A DNA stretch of 64,000 bases, taken from contig NZ_ATYX01000010.1 in assembly GCF_000427905.1 (NCBI RefSeq), positions 1-64,000 on the forward strand. The letters run 5' to 3'. Positions within the stretch are counted from its first letter, which is position 1. Every line of letters starts with the position of its first letter. This DNA is from Thermocrispum agreste DSM 44070 (GTDB lineage: Bacteria > Actinomycetota > Actinomycetes > Mycobacteriales > Pseudonocardiaceae). Position numbers and translations under genes: made by a program. The notes beneath the pieces are model-generated. The model was not told the origin of the DNA. It saw only the letters and a program-made list of their open reading frames with translations, and did not search any database. Positions 1 through 8,832 of the stretch are shown one piece after another.

Positions 1-2625
1 ATCCCTGAAGTTCGTGTACTCGTCGGGGCCCAGCTCGATGGCCCGGTCATGATCGGCCAGCGCATCCTCGAACCGCCCCATGCATCGGTAGGTGATGGCA
101 CGCTGACCGATGGCGAAGCCGTCGGGGCCGAGCTCGATCGCCCGATCGTGATCGGCCAGCGCCTCGGCATAGCGCTCCATGTCCCGATACGTGACCGCGC
201 GCTGCGTGAAGACTTCGGCCTCGCCGGGCACCAGCTCGATCGCTCGGGCATGGTCGGCCAGCGCTTCGGTGAACCGTCCCATTTCCCGGTACATGACCGC
301 GCGAATGAAGAAGTTTTCGGCGTCCTCAGGGTCGAGCTCGATCGCTCGCTCCATGTCGGTCAGCGCCCGGTCGCCATCACCCGTGCCTCTCCACATCGCG
401 GAGCGCAGCAACAGGTATACGGGATCCTCGTCCAGCTCGATCGCCTTGGTCAGTTTTTCGACGGCTTGCGCACAATTGCCCATCTTCTCGTACGTCACCG
501 CCCACTGGGCATAGACCGTGCTGAGGCCGGGCTCGAGCTCGGCCGCTCTGGCGTGGTCCGCAAGCGCCTTGTCGTAGTCGCCCAGTGTTCGATACGCCAC
601 CGCACGCCGCGAGAAATACCATCCCTCGTTCGGATTGAGTTCGAGCGCGCGCGTGTAATCGTTCAGCGCGTCCGCCGCGCGCCCCATGTCCAGATAGACC
701 TCCGCGCGCTTGAAGAGGCAGCCGTCATTGTCCGGCCTACGGTCGAGCGCCCGGGTGTAATCGATCAGCGCATCGAGATGCCGTCCCATGTCGTGATGAA
801 TGCCCGCGCTCACCTCCAACGGCCAGTCTTCGCTCGGAAAACGTTCGGCCAGCCGGGCGGCATCAGCCAACGCTTCTCCGTACCGCCCCACTGCCCGCAA
901 CGCCACGGCCCGGCCGCCGAGTGCCCCGACCATGTCCTGATCCTCGTCCAACACCTGATCGAAGTCCTCGATCGCGTCCTCGAAGCGCGCGCTGCTCATG
1001 CGTTCGTAGCCGCGCTGGACGAGCGCATCAAGCCGAGCGTCTGAAGCGAGGTTCGGAAAGCCCAGCAAGATCGTCAGATACGCCTCGAGATCGTTTTTCC
1101 GGACGGCGTCATCCAATCGTCGGGTCCACCGGAGAAGCGTTTCGTCCCCACTGTCGGCGGCCGCCTCGTTCATCATGGAGACCCAGCGCCGCAGGACAGC
1201 ACGATCCGCTTCCGCGATCGCGACCGAATCTGCCATGGCGTCGGCCAGATTGGCCTGCGGCTCGGCACACAGCTGGTGGTAGCACTCTTCCAGACCGCAA
1301 TTCAGCCGGGTGGGGTCCTCCCACTCGTCGCCGTCCGGCTCGGGCACTGCTTCGCGTTCGGTGCGATAGTGGCCGGCCAGCCGCTGATGAAGGTCCCGCC
1401 ATCGTTGTGGCGAGCGCGCTTTCAGCAAGCGCAGCATCGCTGACCGCGCGACATCGTGGTACTTCCAGTTGTCCCGGGTCCTGGTGACGAAAGGAAGATT
1501 GCACACCCAGTCGAAGACGTCCGCTTCATCGGCGTCGTTGCTGATCACCGCGAGCACGTCGGCGTTGAAGTGCCGCGGTGTCGCTGCGGTGAGAGCCGCA
1601 TCGCGCAGCCGGGCATCCGGCTCCCATTTCAAAAAACGCTCCACGGCGCTGTTCGCAGGATCCTCGACCGAGTGCTCGTCTGCCGGTCCCCTGACCGCCA
1701 GGGCGTTCAGCCACACCGGGAGCCGCCCGGACAGCGACAGGATCGTCGCCACGGTGTGCGGGTCGTGGACGTTGTGCCTGGCGAGCAGTTCGCGCGCTTC
1801 GGCCTCGGTGAACGGCGCCAGCGGGACGTCCTCGACTATGCCCAGGTACGGCGCCCAGTCGTTGACATCGAGCTGACGCTGCCCGGCGATGGTCATCACC
1901 AGCTCGGCGGGCAGGGCGCCGTACTTGCCTTCCAGCAGGTCCAGGATCCACGGCTGGAGGAAGTGCGACGTCCGTTCGAAAGTGTCGAACACCAGCGACA
2001 CGGTCCTGCGCTTGGCCAGCCGGCTGAGATCGGCGACGAAGAGCTTGGTCAGCACCGCGACCGGCTCGAGCACCAGCCGGACATCCTCGGCATTGCGGAA
2101 CTTCCGGCTCACATAGGTCCGGAAACGGTCGAGGTGTTCGTCGGTGATCGCCGCGCTGGCGACGTCCGCCAGCACCCCGAGGCTCGGGTCGGCCTTGGCC
2201 GCGGCCATTCCTGCCCTGGTGAGCAGGGCACCCAGCGTGCCGAACTCGCGCGATTGCGGATCGGCCATCAGCTCGCGCTGGCGCTCGCGATAGGCCGACA
2301 GCCGCCACCGGAAATCCTTGAACTCGCTCCCCTCGCCCGCCAGAGCGGCCGAGAGCACATCCATCGTCTCGATGACGTCGTACGCGCTCTCGTCGGTGCT
2401 ACCGCACGCAGCCCCATGTTCGGCGGCTATGCGCTGAAACTGCTGCACCAAGTACGTCTTGCCGACGCCCGCGACACCGTGCACGGCGAAAACGAACGTG
2501 CGACGCTCGTCGTCCACCGGGAGAGCCAGGTTTTCGGTGAACCGCGCAAGCAGCTCCTGCCGCCCCACGAAGTCCGCGCGCTGTCGCCTCTTGATGATGC
2601 TCTGCAGGTCGGTCCGTTCGTTCAC
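1..2625 (-). CDS. TPR-repeat protein with N-terminal P-loop NTPase (C-terminus cut by window edge)
   Basis: The reading frame is open from about 2625 leftward past base 1, so at least 875 residues are present and the C-terminus is missing. Near residue 50 there is a Walker A (GVAGVGKT), and near residue 208 a Walker B-like LVFDTFE. These are typical of STAND/NB-ARC-like signalling ATPases. From about residue 515 to the edge there are at least ten tetratricopeptide repeats with the period-34 pattern (for example ALADHDRAIELGPD, ALADHARAIELVPG). Such proteins act as ATP-driven scaffolds that oligomerise on ligand binding; in bacteria they appear in regulation, metabolism or defence, and the ligand cannot be read here. 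The start GTG at 2625 is a guess: the frame stays open further upstream and no strong ribosome site decides it. The gene has no operon partner inside the window. Confidence 0.8.
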   Translation of the reverse strand, partial: MNERTDLQSIIKRRQRADFVGRQELLARFTENLALPVDDERRTFVFAVHGVAGVGKTYLVQQFQRIAAEHGAACGSTDESAYDVIETMDVLSAALAGEGSEFKDFRWRLSAYRERQRELMADPQSREFGTLGALLTRAGMAAAKADPSLGVLADVASAAITDEHLDRFRTYVSRKFRNAEDVRLVLEPVAVLTKLFVADLSRLAKRRTVSLVFDTFERTSHFLQPWILDLLEGKYGALPAELVMTIAGQRQLDVNDWAPYLGIVEDVPLAPFTEAEARELLARHNVHDPHTVATILSLSGRLPVWLNALAVRGPADEHSVEDPANSAVERFLKWEPDARLRDAALTAATPRHFNADVLAVISNDADEADVFDWVCNLPFVTRTRDNWKYHDVARSAMLRLLKARSPQRWRDLHQRLAGHYRTEREAVPEPDGDEWEDPTRLNCGLEECYHQLCAEPQANLADAMADSVAIAEADRAVLRRWVSMMNEAAADSGDETLLRWTRRLDDAVRKNDLEAYLTILLGFPNLASDARLDALVQRGYERMSSARFEDAIEDFDQVLDEDQDMVGALGGRAVALRAVGRYGEALADAARLAERFPSEDWPLEVSAGIHHDMGRHLDALIDYTRALDRRPDNDGCLFKRAEVYLDMGRAADALNDYTRALELNPNEGWYFSRRAVAYRTLGDYDKALADHARAAELEPGLSTVYAQWAVTYEKMGNCAQAVEKLTKAIELDEDPVYLLLRSAMWRGTGDGDRALTDMERAIELDPEDAENFFIRAVMYREMGRFTEALADHARAIELVPGEAEVFTQRAVTYRDMERYAEALADHDRAIELGPDGFAIGQRAITYRCMGRFEDALADHDRAIELGPDEYTNFRD

Positions 2626-4715: not shown

Positions 4716-6245
4716 ATGGCCATTCCCCTGTCCCGCATGGGTGATTTCCTCGCGCACTGGACCGCCCGCAAGCCGGACCAGCAGGCACTGGTTTTCCAGG
4801 ACCGCAGCTGGACCTGGGCGGAGCTGGACGACCGGGTGCGGCGTGCGGCGAGTGCCCTGCGTGCCGCGGGGCTGTCCGCGGGCGACCGGTTCGCGGTGCT
4901 GGACAAGAACCACCCGGCCTGCCTCGAGCTGACGCTGGCCGCGTCGATCATCGGTGCGGTCAACGTGGTGGTGAACTTCCGCCTGGCACCGGACGAGCTG
5001 GTCCACGTCCTCGACGACTCCACGGCGAAACTCGTCGTGGTCGGCGCGGAGTTCGCCGGAACGCTCGACGGCATTCGTGACCGCCTGCCGTCCGTCTGCC
5101 GGACCGTGGTGCTCGGCGGTGAAAAAGACGAGTACGAGCAGTGGCTGGCACAGGAGGAACCGCTGGCGGAGCTGCCCACCACGTCGGCCGACGACTGTTT
5201 CCTCCAGCTCTACACCTCGGGCACGACCGGCTGGCCGAAAGGCGCGATGCTCACCCAGCGCAGCATGACCGCGCACACCAACGCCGTCGCACCCGCATAC
5301 GCCATGGACGAGGACACCGTCAACATCGTGGCGATGCCGCTGTTCCACGTCGGCGGGACGAGCTGGGCCCTGGGCAGCATGGCGACGGGTGGGCGGACGG
5401 TCGTCGTGCGGGAAGTGACGGAGGTGCTGCAAGAAGTCGCCAAGCACCAGGCCACGCACGTCTTCCTGGTGCCCGCGGTGATCCAGGCCCTGATCCAGCA
5501 CCCGCAGACGCCGCAAGCGCTCGGCAGCGTCCGCGTCCTTGCCTACGGCGGCTCCCCCATGCCGCTGGACGTGATGAACCAGGTCCTGGAGAAGCTGTCC
5601 ACGCCGCTGTACTCGGTGTACGGGATGACCGAGATGTCGGGGGCGTTCTGCTGCTTGAAGCCGGAAGAGCACCGCGACGAGTCGCGCAGGCACTTGCTGG
5701 CGTCGGCCGGGCGCATCCTGCCGGAGACAGAACTCCGCGTGGTCGATCCGACGACCGGCCAGGACGTGCCGACCGGTCAGCTCGGCGAGTTCTGGGTGAA
5801 GTCGGAGCAGGTGATGGCCGGCTACTGGCGCAACCCGGAGGCCACGAAGGAAACCATCACCGAGGACGGCTGGCTGCGCACCGGGGACGCCGGCCGGGTG
5901 GACGAGGACGGCTACCTCTACATCGAGGACCGGGTCAAGGACATGATCATCACCGGTGGGGAGAACGTCTACCCGGCAGAGGTCGAGCGCGTGCTCGCGC
6001 AGCACCCGGACGTGGCGGAGGTCGCCGTCGTCGGGGTGCCGCACGAGAAGTGGGGCGAAACCCCCAAGGCGGTCGTGGTCCTCAAGGAAGGGGCCACCCT
6101 CGACGAGCAGGGTCTGATCGACTTCACCCGGGAGAAGCTGGCGCACTACAAGTGCCCGACGTCGGTCACCGCCGTGGCAGCGCTGCCGCGGAACCCGACC
6201 GGCAAGATCCTGCGCCGCGAGCTCCGCGCTCAATTCCAGTCATGA
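4716..6245 (+). CDS. Acyl-CoA synthetase (AMP-forming, FadD-like)
   Basis: This 509-residue enzyme belongs to the AMP-binding (ANL) superfamily. It activates a carboxylic acid, probably a medium or long fatty acid, with ATP to an acyl-adenylate and then an acyl-CoA. The P-loop-like signature LYTSGTTGWPKG lies near residue 164, the YGMTE motif near 305, the hinge aspartate region TGDAG near 390, and GENVYPAEVE near 415. The catalytic lysine is in PTGKILRRE near 494, so all core motifs are intact. The length fits FadD13-type single-domain ligases. ATG 4716 is preceded by GGAGGG at 4703-4708. The frame remains open far upstream, but that part overlaps the beta-propeller gene in another frame and is not coding. 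It stands alone between two unrelated loci, so its substrate is unknown. Confidence 0.92.
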   Translation: MAIPLSRMGDFLAHWTARKPDQQALVFQDRSWTWAELDDRVRRAASALRAAGLSAGDRFAVLDKNHPACLELTLAASIIGAVNVVVNFRLAPDELVHVLDDSTAKLVVVGAEFAGTLDGIRDRLPSVCRTVVLGGEKDEYEQWLAQEEPLAELPTTSADDCFLQLYTSGTTGWPKGAMLTQRSMTAHTNAVAPAYAMDEDTVNIVAMPLFHVGGTSWALGSMATGGRTVVVREVTEVLQEVAKHQATHVFLVPAVIQALIQHPQTPQALGSVRVLAYGGSPMPLDVMNQVLEKLSTPLYSVYGMTEMSGAFCCLKPEEHRDESRRHLLASAGRILPETELRVVDPTTGQDVPTGQLGEFWVKSEQVMAGYWRNPEATKETITEDGWLRTGDAGRVDEDGYLYIEDRVKDMIITGGENVYPAEVERVLAQHPDVAEVAVVGVPHEKWGETPKAVVVLKEGATLDEQGLIDFTREKLAHYKCPTSVTAVAALPRNPTGKILRRELRAQFQS

Positions 6246-6942
6246 CGCGGCACCGCCGGTGCGCCCGGTCGTGCGCGGAGCCGTGCGGCACGCACGATTC
6301 CCGTCCCCGGGACGGCAGGCTGGCGAGCCCCGTGCCGGTCCACTGGTGACCTCACTGCCTGCGGGACCGGTCGACACCGTCATGGTGGACCGGCGGCCGG
6401 TAGACGGCACTCGTCTCGGGTGCGGCCTGCGCCGGAAGGAATCCGGATTGCGCAGGCCAGGTGTCGCCGTCCTGTGCCGGAATGCGGGGTCGGAATGCGG
6501 GCCGTCGCCTGCTGGGCGGACACCGTGGCCGGTGCTGCTTACGGCAGGCTCGTCGCCTCCTGAGCCGACCGCGCCACCGTGAGCCGCCGCGCCAAGGCTC
6601 GGCACGTCGGCATGGCCGATCCCGAGCCCCGCTCGAGCCTGGCCGTTCAACATCGGCATGGCCGATCCCGAGTCCCGCTCGAGCCTGGCCGTTCAACATC
6701 GGCAAGGCCGATCCCGAGCCCCGCTCGAGCCTGGCCATTCAGTTGGCTTCGGGTGCGTTTGTGCGATCCGAAGCGAACGTCCGGCGCGGTGGCCGGTGCC
6801 GTCCGGGTGACGGTTCGTCAGACGGCCCCGAGCTGGTCCGGATTCCTCCGGTGCGTGGGCCCCGCCTTCGTCACCGCTTACTCCCGCGGTGAGCTGCCGA
6901 GGCTCTGCACCATCCGGCCCACTTTCCGGTCCCCGCGCCCGG
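6246..6942. other. Gene-free stretch
   Basis: No convincing reading frame was seen in these 700 bp between the acyl-CoA ligase stop and the convergent cyclase-like gene. The only clear structure is the 46-bp tandem array at 6611-6742. Confidence 0.6.
6611..6742. repeat. Tandem 46-bp repeat, nearly three copies
   Basis: Copies start at 6611, 6657 and 6703. The first two differ at a single base; the third is truncated at about 40 bp with a couple of changes. Each unit contains the palindrome GCTCGAGC. The array lies in non-coding DNA. Confidence 0.9.
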
Positions 6943-7692
6943 TCACCGTCGGGCGTAGGCCTTGTCCAGCACCGTCGAGGTCGTGGGCGTGGCACCGCGC
7001 CGCTCGTCCGGTGCCCTGGCGGGCGCCGAGCCTGCGGGCTCGGCCGCGACGAAACCCTTTGCCAGCAACTCACCGGACGGGGAAGGAACGCGCAGGAACG
7101 CGCGGCTCCGATACGACTTGGCTTCCACTTCCACCGGCACGTAGAGATCCGGGCGCTCGGCGGAGTACCCGGACGCCACGGCGTCGTGGTAGGCCCGCTC
7201 CGACACGATGGCGGCCAGGCAGGTCGTGTCGCCGGAGCGGGTCAGCAGGTTCCGCACCGGATCGGCGTCGACGAGCCGGTGCGTCTCGATCTGCGCATCG
7301 CCGCTGCGGTCGCCGGTCGGCCTCTTCGCGAACTCGGTCACCGGGCCGACGGTGATCGCGGCCCGCATCCGCAGCGGTTGCCCGTGGCCTGCGGCCAGTC
7401 CGCGCGCATTGCGGTGCAGCAGTTCGTCCTGCAGCGCGGACAGCAACGGGTTGAGCAGCAACGGAAGCATGGCCGAGTCGAACCCGGCGAAGTACCCGTC
7501 CCCGGTGTGCCGGTGGAACCGCTGCTGCTGCCATGCCTGCGCCAGGCCCGCTCGTTCGAAGGCGAGCCGGAGTATCTGCGGGATGTCCTTGGTCAGCTCG
7601 GCGTGCCTGCTGCCTTCCCGGCCGTTGAAGTCCTTCACGTCGACCACGAACAGCGACCGGTAGGGCGGCAGTACCTGCGGGTGTCGGTCCAT
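6943..7692 (-). CDS. Class III nucleotidyl cyclase-like protein
   Basis: The 249 residues resemble the cyclase homology domain. VVDVKDFNG carries the first metal-binding aspartate (D18) and HTGDGYFAGFD the second (D65). LRMRAAITVGPV matches the strand usually written RIGIHTGEV, and AAIVSERAYHDAV matches the late VSE strand. The helix normally holding the transition-state Asn and Arg reads QIETHRLVDA: the Arg seems kept, the Asn position is Ile. This resembles a family of single-domain proteins common in actinomycetes that are usually left as hypothetical. Enzymatic activity and nucleotide product are therefore uncertain. It lies 106 bp downstream of, and in the same direction as, a CRP-like regulator gene, with a CRP-type site between. 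ATG 7692 has GGAAGG ten bases upstream. There is no signal peptide or membrane segment. Confidence 0.7.
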   Translation of the reverse strand: MDRHPQVLPPYRSLFVVDVKDFNGREGSRHAELTKDIPQILRLAFERAGLAQAWQQQRFHRHTGDGYFAGFDSAMLPLLLNPLLSALQDELLHRNARGLAAGHGQPLRMRAAITVGPVTEFAKRPTGDRSGDAQIETHRLVDADPVRNLLTRSGDTTCLAAIVSERAYHDAVASGYSAERPDLYVPVEVEAKSYRSRAFLRVPSPSGELLAKGFVAAEPAGSAPARAPDERRGATPTTSTVLDKAYARR

Positions 7693-7787
7693 TCCAGATC
7701 AGCCTTCCCGATGGGACGACCTCGACGTTGCCAGGGAGGATCGCGCCGATACGCGGCCGGCGTTGTCCACCACCGGACAAATCGTAG

Positions 7788-7803
7788 TGTGGCTCACGTC
7801 ACA
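7788..7803. promoter_or_regulatory. Candidate CRP-type operator upstream of the cyclase-like gene
   Basis: On the minus strand the site reads TGTGACGTGAGCCACA, which is TGTGA-N6-TCACA with one mismatch. It covers the stop codon of the CRP-like gene and lies about 95 bp before the cyclase ATG. Matching to the classical CRP consensus is by eye. Confidence 0.45.
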
Positions 7804-8458
7804 ATCCCGCATGTCGGCGAAGCTTCCGCACGTCGGCCACCACGACGCGCCGCCCGGACGAGAGCGCGCCGGTACTGCGCAACAGGGCGATCTGCTCGGC
7901 GACGGTGCTGCGGGCCAGCCCGAGGGCACGCGCCAGCTCCCCCTGCGACAGCGGGATGAGGAAGCGATCGGGCTTGTCCGGCGGGGCCAGGGTGACCAGC
8001 TCGTGCAGCAGCCTGGCCACCCGCCGCTCGGCGGGGAAGCGCGCCAGCTGCATCTGGCTGGGGATGGTCTGCGACAGCTTGAGCACCAGATAGTCCGCGT
8101 ACCGCCCCACCGCACGGTTCTCTTCGAGGAAGCGGTGGAACCGATGGGTCTCGATCACCTTGGCGATGCACCGGTCGATCGCCATCACGCTGACCGTTCG
8201 CCGGGAGTGCTCGCCGGTGGCCATCTCGCCCACCACATCGCCTGCCGAGCGCAGGGAGACCAGCAGTTCGTCGCCGTCCGGTGTGTGGCCGAGGACCTTC
8301 ACCCGCCCGGACACCAGCGCCACCAGGTAGCCGCCTGGCTCGCCCTGTCGCATGAGGTACGTGCCCGAGGCGAACTCGCGGTGGGTGCCGAGCATCAGCA
8401 GGCGAGCCCACCCTTCGTCACCGAGCAATGCCCGAAAGCCAAGCGGCCGCTCAGCCAC
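7799..8458 (-). CDS. CRP/FNR-family cyclic-nucleotide-type transcription regulator
   Basis: The 219 residues hold an N-terminal cyclic-nucleotide-binding beta-roll. It includes GEM followed by SRRTVSV, where the Arg and Thr match the phosphate-binding Arg-Ser pair of CRP. A long dimer helix and a C-terminal winged helix (SQGELARALGLARSTVAEQIALL) follow. The recognition helix keeps the first Arg but has Ser in place of the usual Glu, so its DNA site may differ from that of E. coli CRP. GTG 8458 is chosen because AGGAGG lies five bases upstream; an ATG at 8503 and longer versions lack such a site. It is probably co-transcribed with the cyclase-like gene downstream, suggesting a self-contained signalling pair. 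Bound nucleotide is unknown. Confidence 0.9.
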   Translation of the reverse strand: MAERPLGFRALLGDEGWARLLMLGTHREFASGTYLMRQGEPGGYLVALVSGRVKVLGHTPDGDELLVSLRSAGDVVGEMATGEHSRRTVSVMAIDRCIAKVIETHRFHRFLEENRAVGRYADYLVLKLSQTIPSQMQLARFPAERRVARLLHELVTLAPPDKPDRFLIPLSQGELARALGLARSTVAEQIALLRSTGALSSGRRVVVADVRKLRRHAGL

Positions 8459-8832
8459 CTCGGCCTCCTGCCTACTGCTGCCACAACCCCGCACCACTGG
8501 CATGCCCTCGGATGTCACCGCTACTTTCGGTAGCGTGCCAACTACTGTCGGCACGCGCAACGGTGACCATCGCGAACGCTCGCCGATGCCGTCCGGCGGC
8601 CTTGCCGACCAGGGCAACCATACGGACCCGGCGCGCAGGAGAACACCCTTTCGCCGACCGGGACGACTCCGATCACGTGCTGCTTCGCCGAGCCCGTGCA
8701 GCCCACACCACCCGCCCATCCCGTCCAGCCCGCCGGAACGGGACCGGCCGCCGGTGGACCGCACGACGGAGCAGGTGCGGACGGCCGGACATCGATCGCC
8801 ACCGTCGGGCCGAGCCGCTACCGTGATCGGCC
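8459..8832. other. Divergent intergenic region with an inverted repeat
   Basis: This gap lies between the leftward CRP-like gene and the rightward VOC gene. A 7-bp perfect inverted repeat (GCGTGCC...GGCACGC, 8533-8556) is the only clear element and could be an operator. No gene seen. Confidence 0.5.

Follow-up and report, generated by a model that had tools for sequence, protein, structure and literature searches.

A CRP-type regulator and a class III-fold cyclase in Thermocrispum agreste: a predicted positive-feedback cassette with an NTPase partner in relatives

A gene for a transcription factor with a cyclic-nucleotide pocket, set directly upstream of a gene for a cyclase-like protein, raises the question of whether the two form a closed signalling unit, and if so, which DNA site closes it. 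Such a pair lies in the 64,000-nucleotide stretch of Thermocrispum agreste DSM 44070 DNA analysed here (the window; contig NZ_ATYX01000010.1, positions 1 to 64,000). An earlier note, made from the letters alone, had read it as a two-gene module combining sensor, synthase and a TGTGA-type feedback operator.

The two genes and their products

6943..7692, minus strand: class III-fold nucleotidyl cyclase, 249 aa (predicted fold and invariant residues)
7799..8503, minus strand: CRP-family regulator with a cNMP-binding domain and a Crp-type HTH (Pfam and alignment to E. coli CRP)

The regulator gene may begin with GTG at 8458, giving 219 aa, or with ATG at 8503, where the frame is also open, giving 234 aa. 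Its product matches PF00027 (E 1.6e-17) and HTH_Crp_2 (E 6.6e-12), both above cut-off, and aligns to E. coli CRP with Gly71, Glu72 and Arg82 present and Thr at 83; the CRP-family assignment of the earlier note, and the phosphate-binding Arg-Thr pair that it had pointed out, are borne out by these matches. The ribose-phosphate pocket is kept across 74 aligned regulators (G71 in 73/74, E72 in 72/74, R82 in 73/74). Among PADLOC models, the cNMP domain of the window regulator matches PycTIR (5.3e-9) and one PycC model (4.6e-6).

For the cyclase, Pfam, PADLOC and NCBIfam return no match at E<=1, hence none to a PycC or DUF2652 profile, and PDB sequences return none at E<=10. An AlphaFold model made with 19 relatives in the input (pLDDT 80.6, pTM 0.77) has its best Foldseek match in 4yus (E 5e-8), with the Anabaena uridylate cyclase 8jsz at 2.7e-6; VIA gives Ma1120 as best (Z 16.1 over 155 residues, rmsd 2.3). 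D18, D65, R139 and K192 are invariant in a 20-row alignment; we take D18 and D65 to be the two metal-binding aspartates, R139 the catalytic arginine and K192 the phosphate lysine, going by motif and general knowledge of the class rather than by superposition, and Ile135 presumably occupies the usual catalytic asparagine position of class III cyclases. Gene order, modelled fold and the invariance of both aspartates agree with the class III cyclase-like neighbour that had been claimed. The identity of the regulator and the fold of the cyclase can be regarded as nearly certain; that the enzyme is active in the window species is fairly probable.

Conservation of the pair

The earlier note had suggested looking for the pair in related genomes, and it is there, by co-occurrence and by co-divergence. 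A cyclase match at E<=1e-3 is found in 113/200 genomes of the same family (the window's own among them) and a match in 47/296 of the same class; a separate search of genome contigs for related loci returned no relative. The regulator lies directly upstream of the cyclase in 30/30 best loci (29 relatives and the window). The strong family set comprises 60 of the 81 strong rows, window excluded (loci L051-L110): a same-strand regulator stands within 400 bp upstream in 52, a P-loop NTPase gene directly downstream in 47, and both in 46. Of 20 loci from other families (L141-L160), 18 have the regulator, 19 the NTPase and 17 both; the regulator and both-partner counts are biased upwards because these loci were hand-picked, largely from the best matches and largely from those whose regulator was already known. 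Across a wider 28 other-family loci, the 1.5-kb flanks contain a regulator match in 20 (one a weak fragment, and at least two about 0.9 kb off). Weak homologues keep other company: the set numbers 20 (L031-L050), and of the 18 that passed the cut, one has a tandem regulator and two a divergent one; in L045 and L049 the CRP and cyclase genes are head to head.

In 65 loci the distances among cyclases, regulators and NTPases are correlated, with r 0.77 to 0.81 (999 permutations, each <=0.29), and common descent accounts for part of this. A variant arrangement, cyclase-CRP-cyclase-NTPase, is seen in L076 (6907-7464) and L078 (5966-6562), where a second, nearly tail-less cyclase lies directly upstream of the regulator; the L078 copy has a stop within the match.

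The junction between the genes

7788..7803, minus strand: site 1, TGTGACGTGAGCCACA (TGTGA-N6-CCACA), overlapping the regulator stop codon; possible site of the genome's other CRP
7764..7779, minus strand: site 2, TGTCCGGTGGTGGACA (TGTCC-N6-GGACA), candidate operator for the regulator of this pair, from junction conservation
7737..7742, minus strand: -10-like hexamer GATCCT, from its fixed spacing to site 2 in relatives

Site 1 is the one reported in the earlier note, and it is real, 95 bp ahead of the cyclase start; what had been overlooked is site 2, a second and more widely shared palindrome. Taken alone, site 1 is within chance (at <=1 mismatch, one occurrence of its pattern in the whole window, against 3.25 expected); its significance comes from its location in the junction, not from sequence alone. 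Among 69 junctions (68 relatives and the window), 21 have a site within one mismatch of TGTGAN6TCACA, where shuffles expect 0.05. TGTCC-N6-GGACA occurs in 33/69 (shuffles 0) and GTCC-N6-GGAC in 45/69 (shuffles 0.2); the background is one of letter (mononucleotide) shuffles, and the palindrome pattern was composed after inspecting the same sequences. By the pattern used, site 2 is absent from 20/69 junctions, 12 of these among the 18 other-family regulator loci.

The spacing to the -10 was not so composed. When 49 junctions are aligned on the palindrome or its near variants, 46 have both A at +38 and T at +42, and in the remaining three the pair is shifted one base later; none of the other offsets from +18 to +79 reaches 10. 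The pair is, by its letters, a -10-like xAnnnT. This fixed spacing puts the predicted start at +49 (about 7730 in the window) and the centre of site 2 at -41.5, the position of a class II activator; no -35 element is conserved in the aligned junctions. A GTGA-N6-TCAC element (>=7/8 letters) begins at -22 or -23 in 30 of the 49, and its counterpart in the window is site 1.

Searched across the 200 genomes of the family, palindrome plus -10 gives 60 rows in 57 genomes (reversed control, three rows), 43 of them within 260 bp of a strong cyclase and 17 not; in the window's genome the pattern occurs once, at the regulator-cyclase junction. Further targets of the regulator are possible, since the palindrome without the -10 is found there, at <=1 mismatch, in 49 places against 16 for the reversed pattern. 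A regulon through the one further exact TGTCCR-N4-YGGACA of the genome (contig 3, 30505) was set aside; that copy lies inside an open frame and is without the -10 letters. In the 330 bp upstream of the regulator, conserved inverted repeats are found in at most 4/69 loci, the same as in shuffles, and the 400 bp upstream of 11 cyclases chosen as lacking a tandem regulator or belonging to the weak group hold no operator-like palindrome (one of the 11, L044, does have a tandem regulator). A dedicated cyclase promoter with a local operator is, on this conservation, highly probable.

Which regulator reads which site

In E. coli CRP, R180, E181 and R185 read TGTGA, and S128 contacts the adenine. The window regulator keeps Arg180 and has Ser181, Glu185 and Ile128, a set of residues other than that of E. 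coli-type TGTGA specificity; among the aligned regulators, 52 have V, D or A at position 128 and six have Ser. The R180-S181 helix accompanies 44/46 TGTCC-type loci against 3/23 others (Fisher p 3e-12, relatedness ignored; the value is inflated, as are those for co-divergence, because the pairs are related by descent, and the 46 loci were defined by a slightly different pattern from the 49 aligned junctions). The three TGTTC-type loci have Arg-Thr at the recognition positions. With E. coli CRP as query, just one further homologue turned up in the genome, and its helix is the canonical Arg-Glu-Thr-Val.

Site 2 is the more probable cognate operator because the regulator is without Glu181 and Arg185 and because residue 181 tracks site 2; most likely, then, the local regulator would read TGTCC-N6-GGACA, and site 1 may be read by the genome's other CRP. 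An operator of the TGTGA type only was set aside on the recognition helix and the junction statistics. The idea of a closed unit is upheld as to the regulator, the cyclase fold and a conserved operator, and changed as to which of the two palindromes is the operator.

The NTPase partner in relatives

In relatives, the next gene downstream of the cyclase codes for a P-loop protein about 640-960 aa long, its start being uncertain. When four of these were run against Pfam, L155 passed with nSTAND3 (1.9e-7), L054 matched it weakly (0.018) and the other two did not match it; they are called STAND-like here because of the nSTAND3 matches of L155 and L054 and the similarity of the NTPases to one another.

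The cyclases of the relatives end in a C-terminal tail with glycine-rich motifs. A strict RHIM-like pattern, also composed after inspection of these sequences, is found in 22/62 (letter-shuffled mean 0.34, max 4); BASS3/RHIM-like motifs reportedly belong to the bacterial amyloid signalling motifs (Dyrka, 2020). The adjacent NTPase carries at its N-terminus a locus-specific motif that matches the tail of its own cyclase. In local alignments of tail with N-terminus, the 66 true pairs score 73.4 and permuted pairs 33.7 (sd 1.3, max 39.2, 2000 permutations); the own partner ranks first in 35/66 and in the top three in 48/66; and 50/66 pairings exceed the 99% shuffled-tail level, the other 16/66 do not. 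A motif HMM trained on 24 cyclase tails, for which only non-cyclase matches count because of that training, matches four cyclase-adjacent NTPases (L119, L121, L124 and L125, E 0.002 to 0.035) and, in L088, where the cyclase has no regulator beside it, the N-terminal end of a nearby NB-ARC/TPR protein (E 8.8e-5); reversed frames give no match at E<0.5. From these pairings, coupling of NTPase and cyclase through the motif seems somewhat more probable than its absence in relatives; that the coupling proceeds by amyloid-type templating is a tentative reading, short of an even chance.

Several neighbouring arrangements were noticed. The most RHIM-like tails (IQVG core) are those of the cyclases of L088, L090-L092, L095, L096 and L100, which are without an adjacent regulator or NTPase; in L088 a single gene separates the cyclase from the NB-ARC/TPR gene upstream, whose product has the motif at its N-terminus. 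In weak homologues the cyclase domain is fused to NB-ARC-TPR (L040) or to NACHT (L043); to a solute-binding-protein-like domain in L036 (4229-6214; SBP_bac_11 7.2e-7) and, judged by eye, in L033-L035, L041 and L047; and in L136, L138 and L140 a seemingly TIR-like domain, judged by eye, follows the weak cyclase homologue in the same frame. PycTM genes (PF18967), spotted by eye and confirmed with Pfam, lie beyond the NTPase in at least L152, L153 and L159. Many loci have a fourth gene after the NTPase, about 250-430 aa and often with an N-terminal hydrophobic stretch (for example L053 10807-11973, L142 3873-4676 and L157 6691-7809); the three scanned gave no Pfam match above cut-off.

The copy in the window

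6241..8818, 2578 bp: interval in whose place G036, a genome of the same genus, has 36 bp (flanks 82-87% identical)

The window cyclase ends 36 residues past the last invariant glycine, Gly213, without the long tail of its relatives, and no tail motif was seen by eye in the three frames downstream. The NTPase is absent from the window and from the rest of the genome, which is 99% complete; the same query found it in 6/6 genomes known to have it (E<=2e-93). Nor does the query match in G036, the one same-genus genome searched. A search for NTPase remnants near the pair gave weak matches only (best E 0.041), and no PycTM was found in the window's genome. The interval missing from G036 would be either a gain in the window genome or a loss in G036. 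Inside it, between the cyclase and an acyl-CoA synthetase-like gene, are three tandem 46-bp repeats (6604-6741; 93-96% identical to the first). Elsewhere in the window, a large TPR protein with an AAA_16-like P-loop (1-2625, minus strand; 3.4e-7, just under cut-off) runs off the start of window and contig; about 4.3 kb, including a gene for an AMP-binding enzyme, separate it from the cyclase.

The two-gene module of the earlier note is thus a real pair, but one that looks like a reduced accessory form of the regulator-cyclase-NTPase unit of its relatives, and still looks intact.

The proposed circuit and its alternatives

The reading favoured here, with moderate confidence, is an accessory cassette that links a class III-fold cyclase in positive feedback with a CRP-type activator dedicated to it. 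The cyclase would make a cyclic nucleotide; the activator would bind it through the conserved ribose-phosphate pocket; the ligand-bound activator would occupy TGTCC-N6-GGACA at -41.5 of an internal promoter, with a -10 and no conserved -35, and so raise production of cyclase. Further input, from the genome's other CRP, may arrive through the TGTGA-type site, which lies upstream of site 2 by about 23 bp. Most relatives have this promoter region ahead of both the cyclase and the STAND-like NTPase, which probably controls the cyclase through the short motif shared by the cyclase's C-terminus and the NTPase's N-terminus, a mode of control already proposed for NLR/effector pairs of bacterial amyloid signalling; in the window, motif and NTPase would have gone together and the loop of enzyme and activator been retained.

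The sign of the feedback is predicted from geometry: a palindrome at -41.5 predicts activation, which can be held with some assurance over repression, and with activation positive feedback of the regulator on the cyclase becomes likely. Repression, common among autoregulators, can likewise act through a palindrome close before a -10; negative feedback, with the regulator blocking RNA polymerase and holding the cyclase at a set level, is nonetheless unlikely, as the fixed -41.5 spacing and the lack of a conserved -35 fit a promoter that depends on an activator. A quite different objection to the DNA reading is that the palindrome works in the transcript, as an intergenic hairpin for attenuation or processing; in many relatives 5-7 base pairs closing a short loop can be drawn by eye, but the half-sites are sequence-specific, they keep a fixed distance from the -10 and they are tracked by a DNA-reading residue, which leaves the hairpin scarcely credible.

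It may also be asked whether the local regulator matters at all. If only the other CRP acted, binding the TGTGA site on cAMP while the local regulator worked elsewhere or was not under ligand control, the conserved TGTGA-type sites (21/69 junctions), the canonical Arg-Glu-Thr-Val helix of that homologue and the 49 near-matches to site 2 elsewhere in the genome would find their place; site 2 is, however, the more widely shared, and its half-site varies with the local regulator's residue 181, which makes this account highly improbable. Finally, the pair might be a remnant, drifting without present role after loss of NTPase and tail: NTPase and PycTM are missing from the genome, the cyclase tail is short and the congener G036 lacks the interval. 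Set against this, neither frame is broken, the cNMP pocket and the cyclase's invariant residues are preserved, and every part of the promoter layout is in place; the remnant is distinctly unlikely, and because frames, invariant residues and promoter are intact, a working reduced unit is favoured over decay, if not strongly.

Relation to known systems

At class II promoters of E. coli CRP the palindrome sits at -41.5, the -35 is dispensable and the protein has a cNMP pocket. The activator-cyclase cassette proposed here resembles these in the place of site 2, the lack of a conserved -35 and the pocket; it differs in having TGTCC for TGTGA, with Ser181 and Glu185 as recognition residues, and in that one local target was found here as against a global regulon.

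Pycsar consists of a pyrimidine cyclase and a cNMP-receptor effector (PMC11224242). The likeness is that a class III-fold cyclase adjoins a protein with a CRP-like cNMP-binding domain, and that PycTM genes lie near the NTPase in L152, L153 and L159. The receptor here would instead be a transcription factor at the cyclase's own promoter; moreover, the window cyclase has no PycC profile match, no PycTM is found in its genome, and the relatives add an NTPase.

Amyloid-type (BASS) signalling offers a second comparison: in the available text of PMC7889193 and PMC8086366, an effector's C-terminal motif is matched by the N-terminal motif of the adjacent NTPase, as in the relatives, and some of their cyclase tails have a RHIM-like core, judging by sequence pattern and gene order. 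The effectors named there are BELL, CHAT and TIR, and the word 'cyclase' is absent from the text of PMC7889193; in the relatives the effector would be a cyclase, with a CRP regulator and an operator besides. The window copy differs from BASS and NLR systems in being without tail motif and NTPase.

NTP-dependent conflict systems, as far as the available part of PMC7159879 describes them, include actinobacterial NTPase-centred systems with cyclase domains as signal makers, and a CRP-like factor linked to some of their peptide-processing systems. The cyclase as signal maker beside an NTPase, in actinobacteria, is common to both; that part describes no operon of regulator, cyclase and NTPase in which an operator is shared or tails are paired. 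DUF2652, in the available text of PMC4886424, comprises stand-alone class III-like proteins of about 250 aa with Ile for Asn and the Arg kept, whose gene neighbours include cNMP-binding proteins. The window cyclase is like them in size, in Ile for Asn and in its cNMP-binding neighbour, and unlike them in matching no Pfam family at E<=1; that account, in the same portion, lists neighbours, with no operator or NTPase. Among the matches listed in a search of titles and abstract openings of the open-access literature, no description of this operon was found.

Implications

What is new here is the combination of cyclase and regulator with a STAND-like NTPase whose motif tends to match its own cyclase's tail. 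It gives a set of actinomycete cyclases without a Pfam name a concrete, testable wiring, from NTPase through motif, cyclase and cNMP to CRP and operator, with predictions as to operator, promoter and direction of control. The relatives may, with rather less than even confidence, represent an undescribed NLR-like system of actinomycetes, in which the NTPase would switch on the cyclase by heterotypic templating between amyloid-like motifs particular to each locus and the cNMP fire the CRP, amplifying the operon from its -41.5 operator, an innate-immune switch with transcriptional positive feedback of which the window copy would be a stripped form; analogy suggests the immune role. Two bacterial themes that are usually separate, amyloid-type NLR signalling and cyclic mononucleotide messengers, would then be joined, and the window copy would be a natural experiment, an enzyme and its regulator without the likely sensor.
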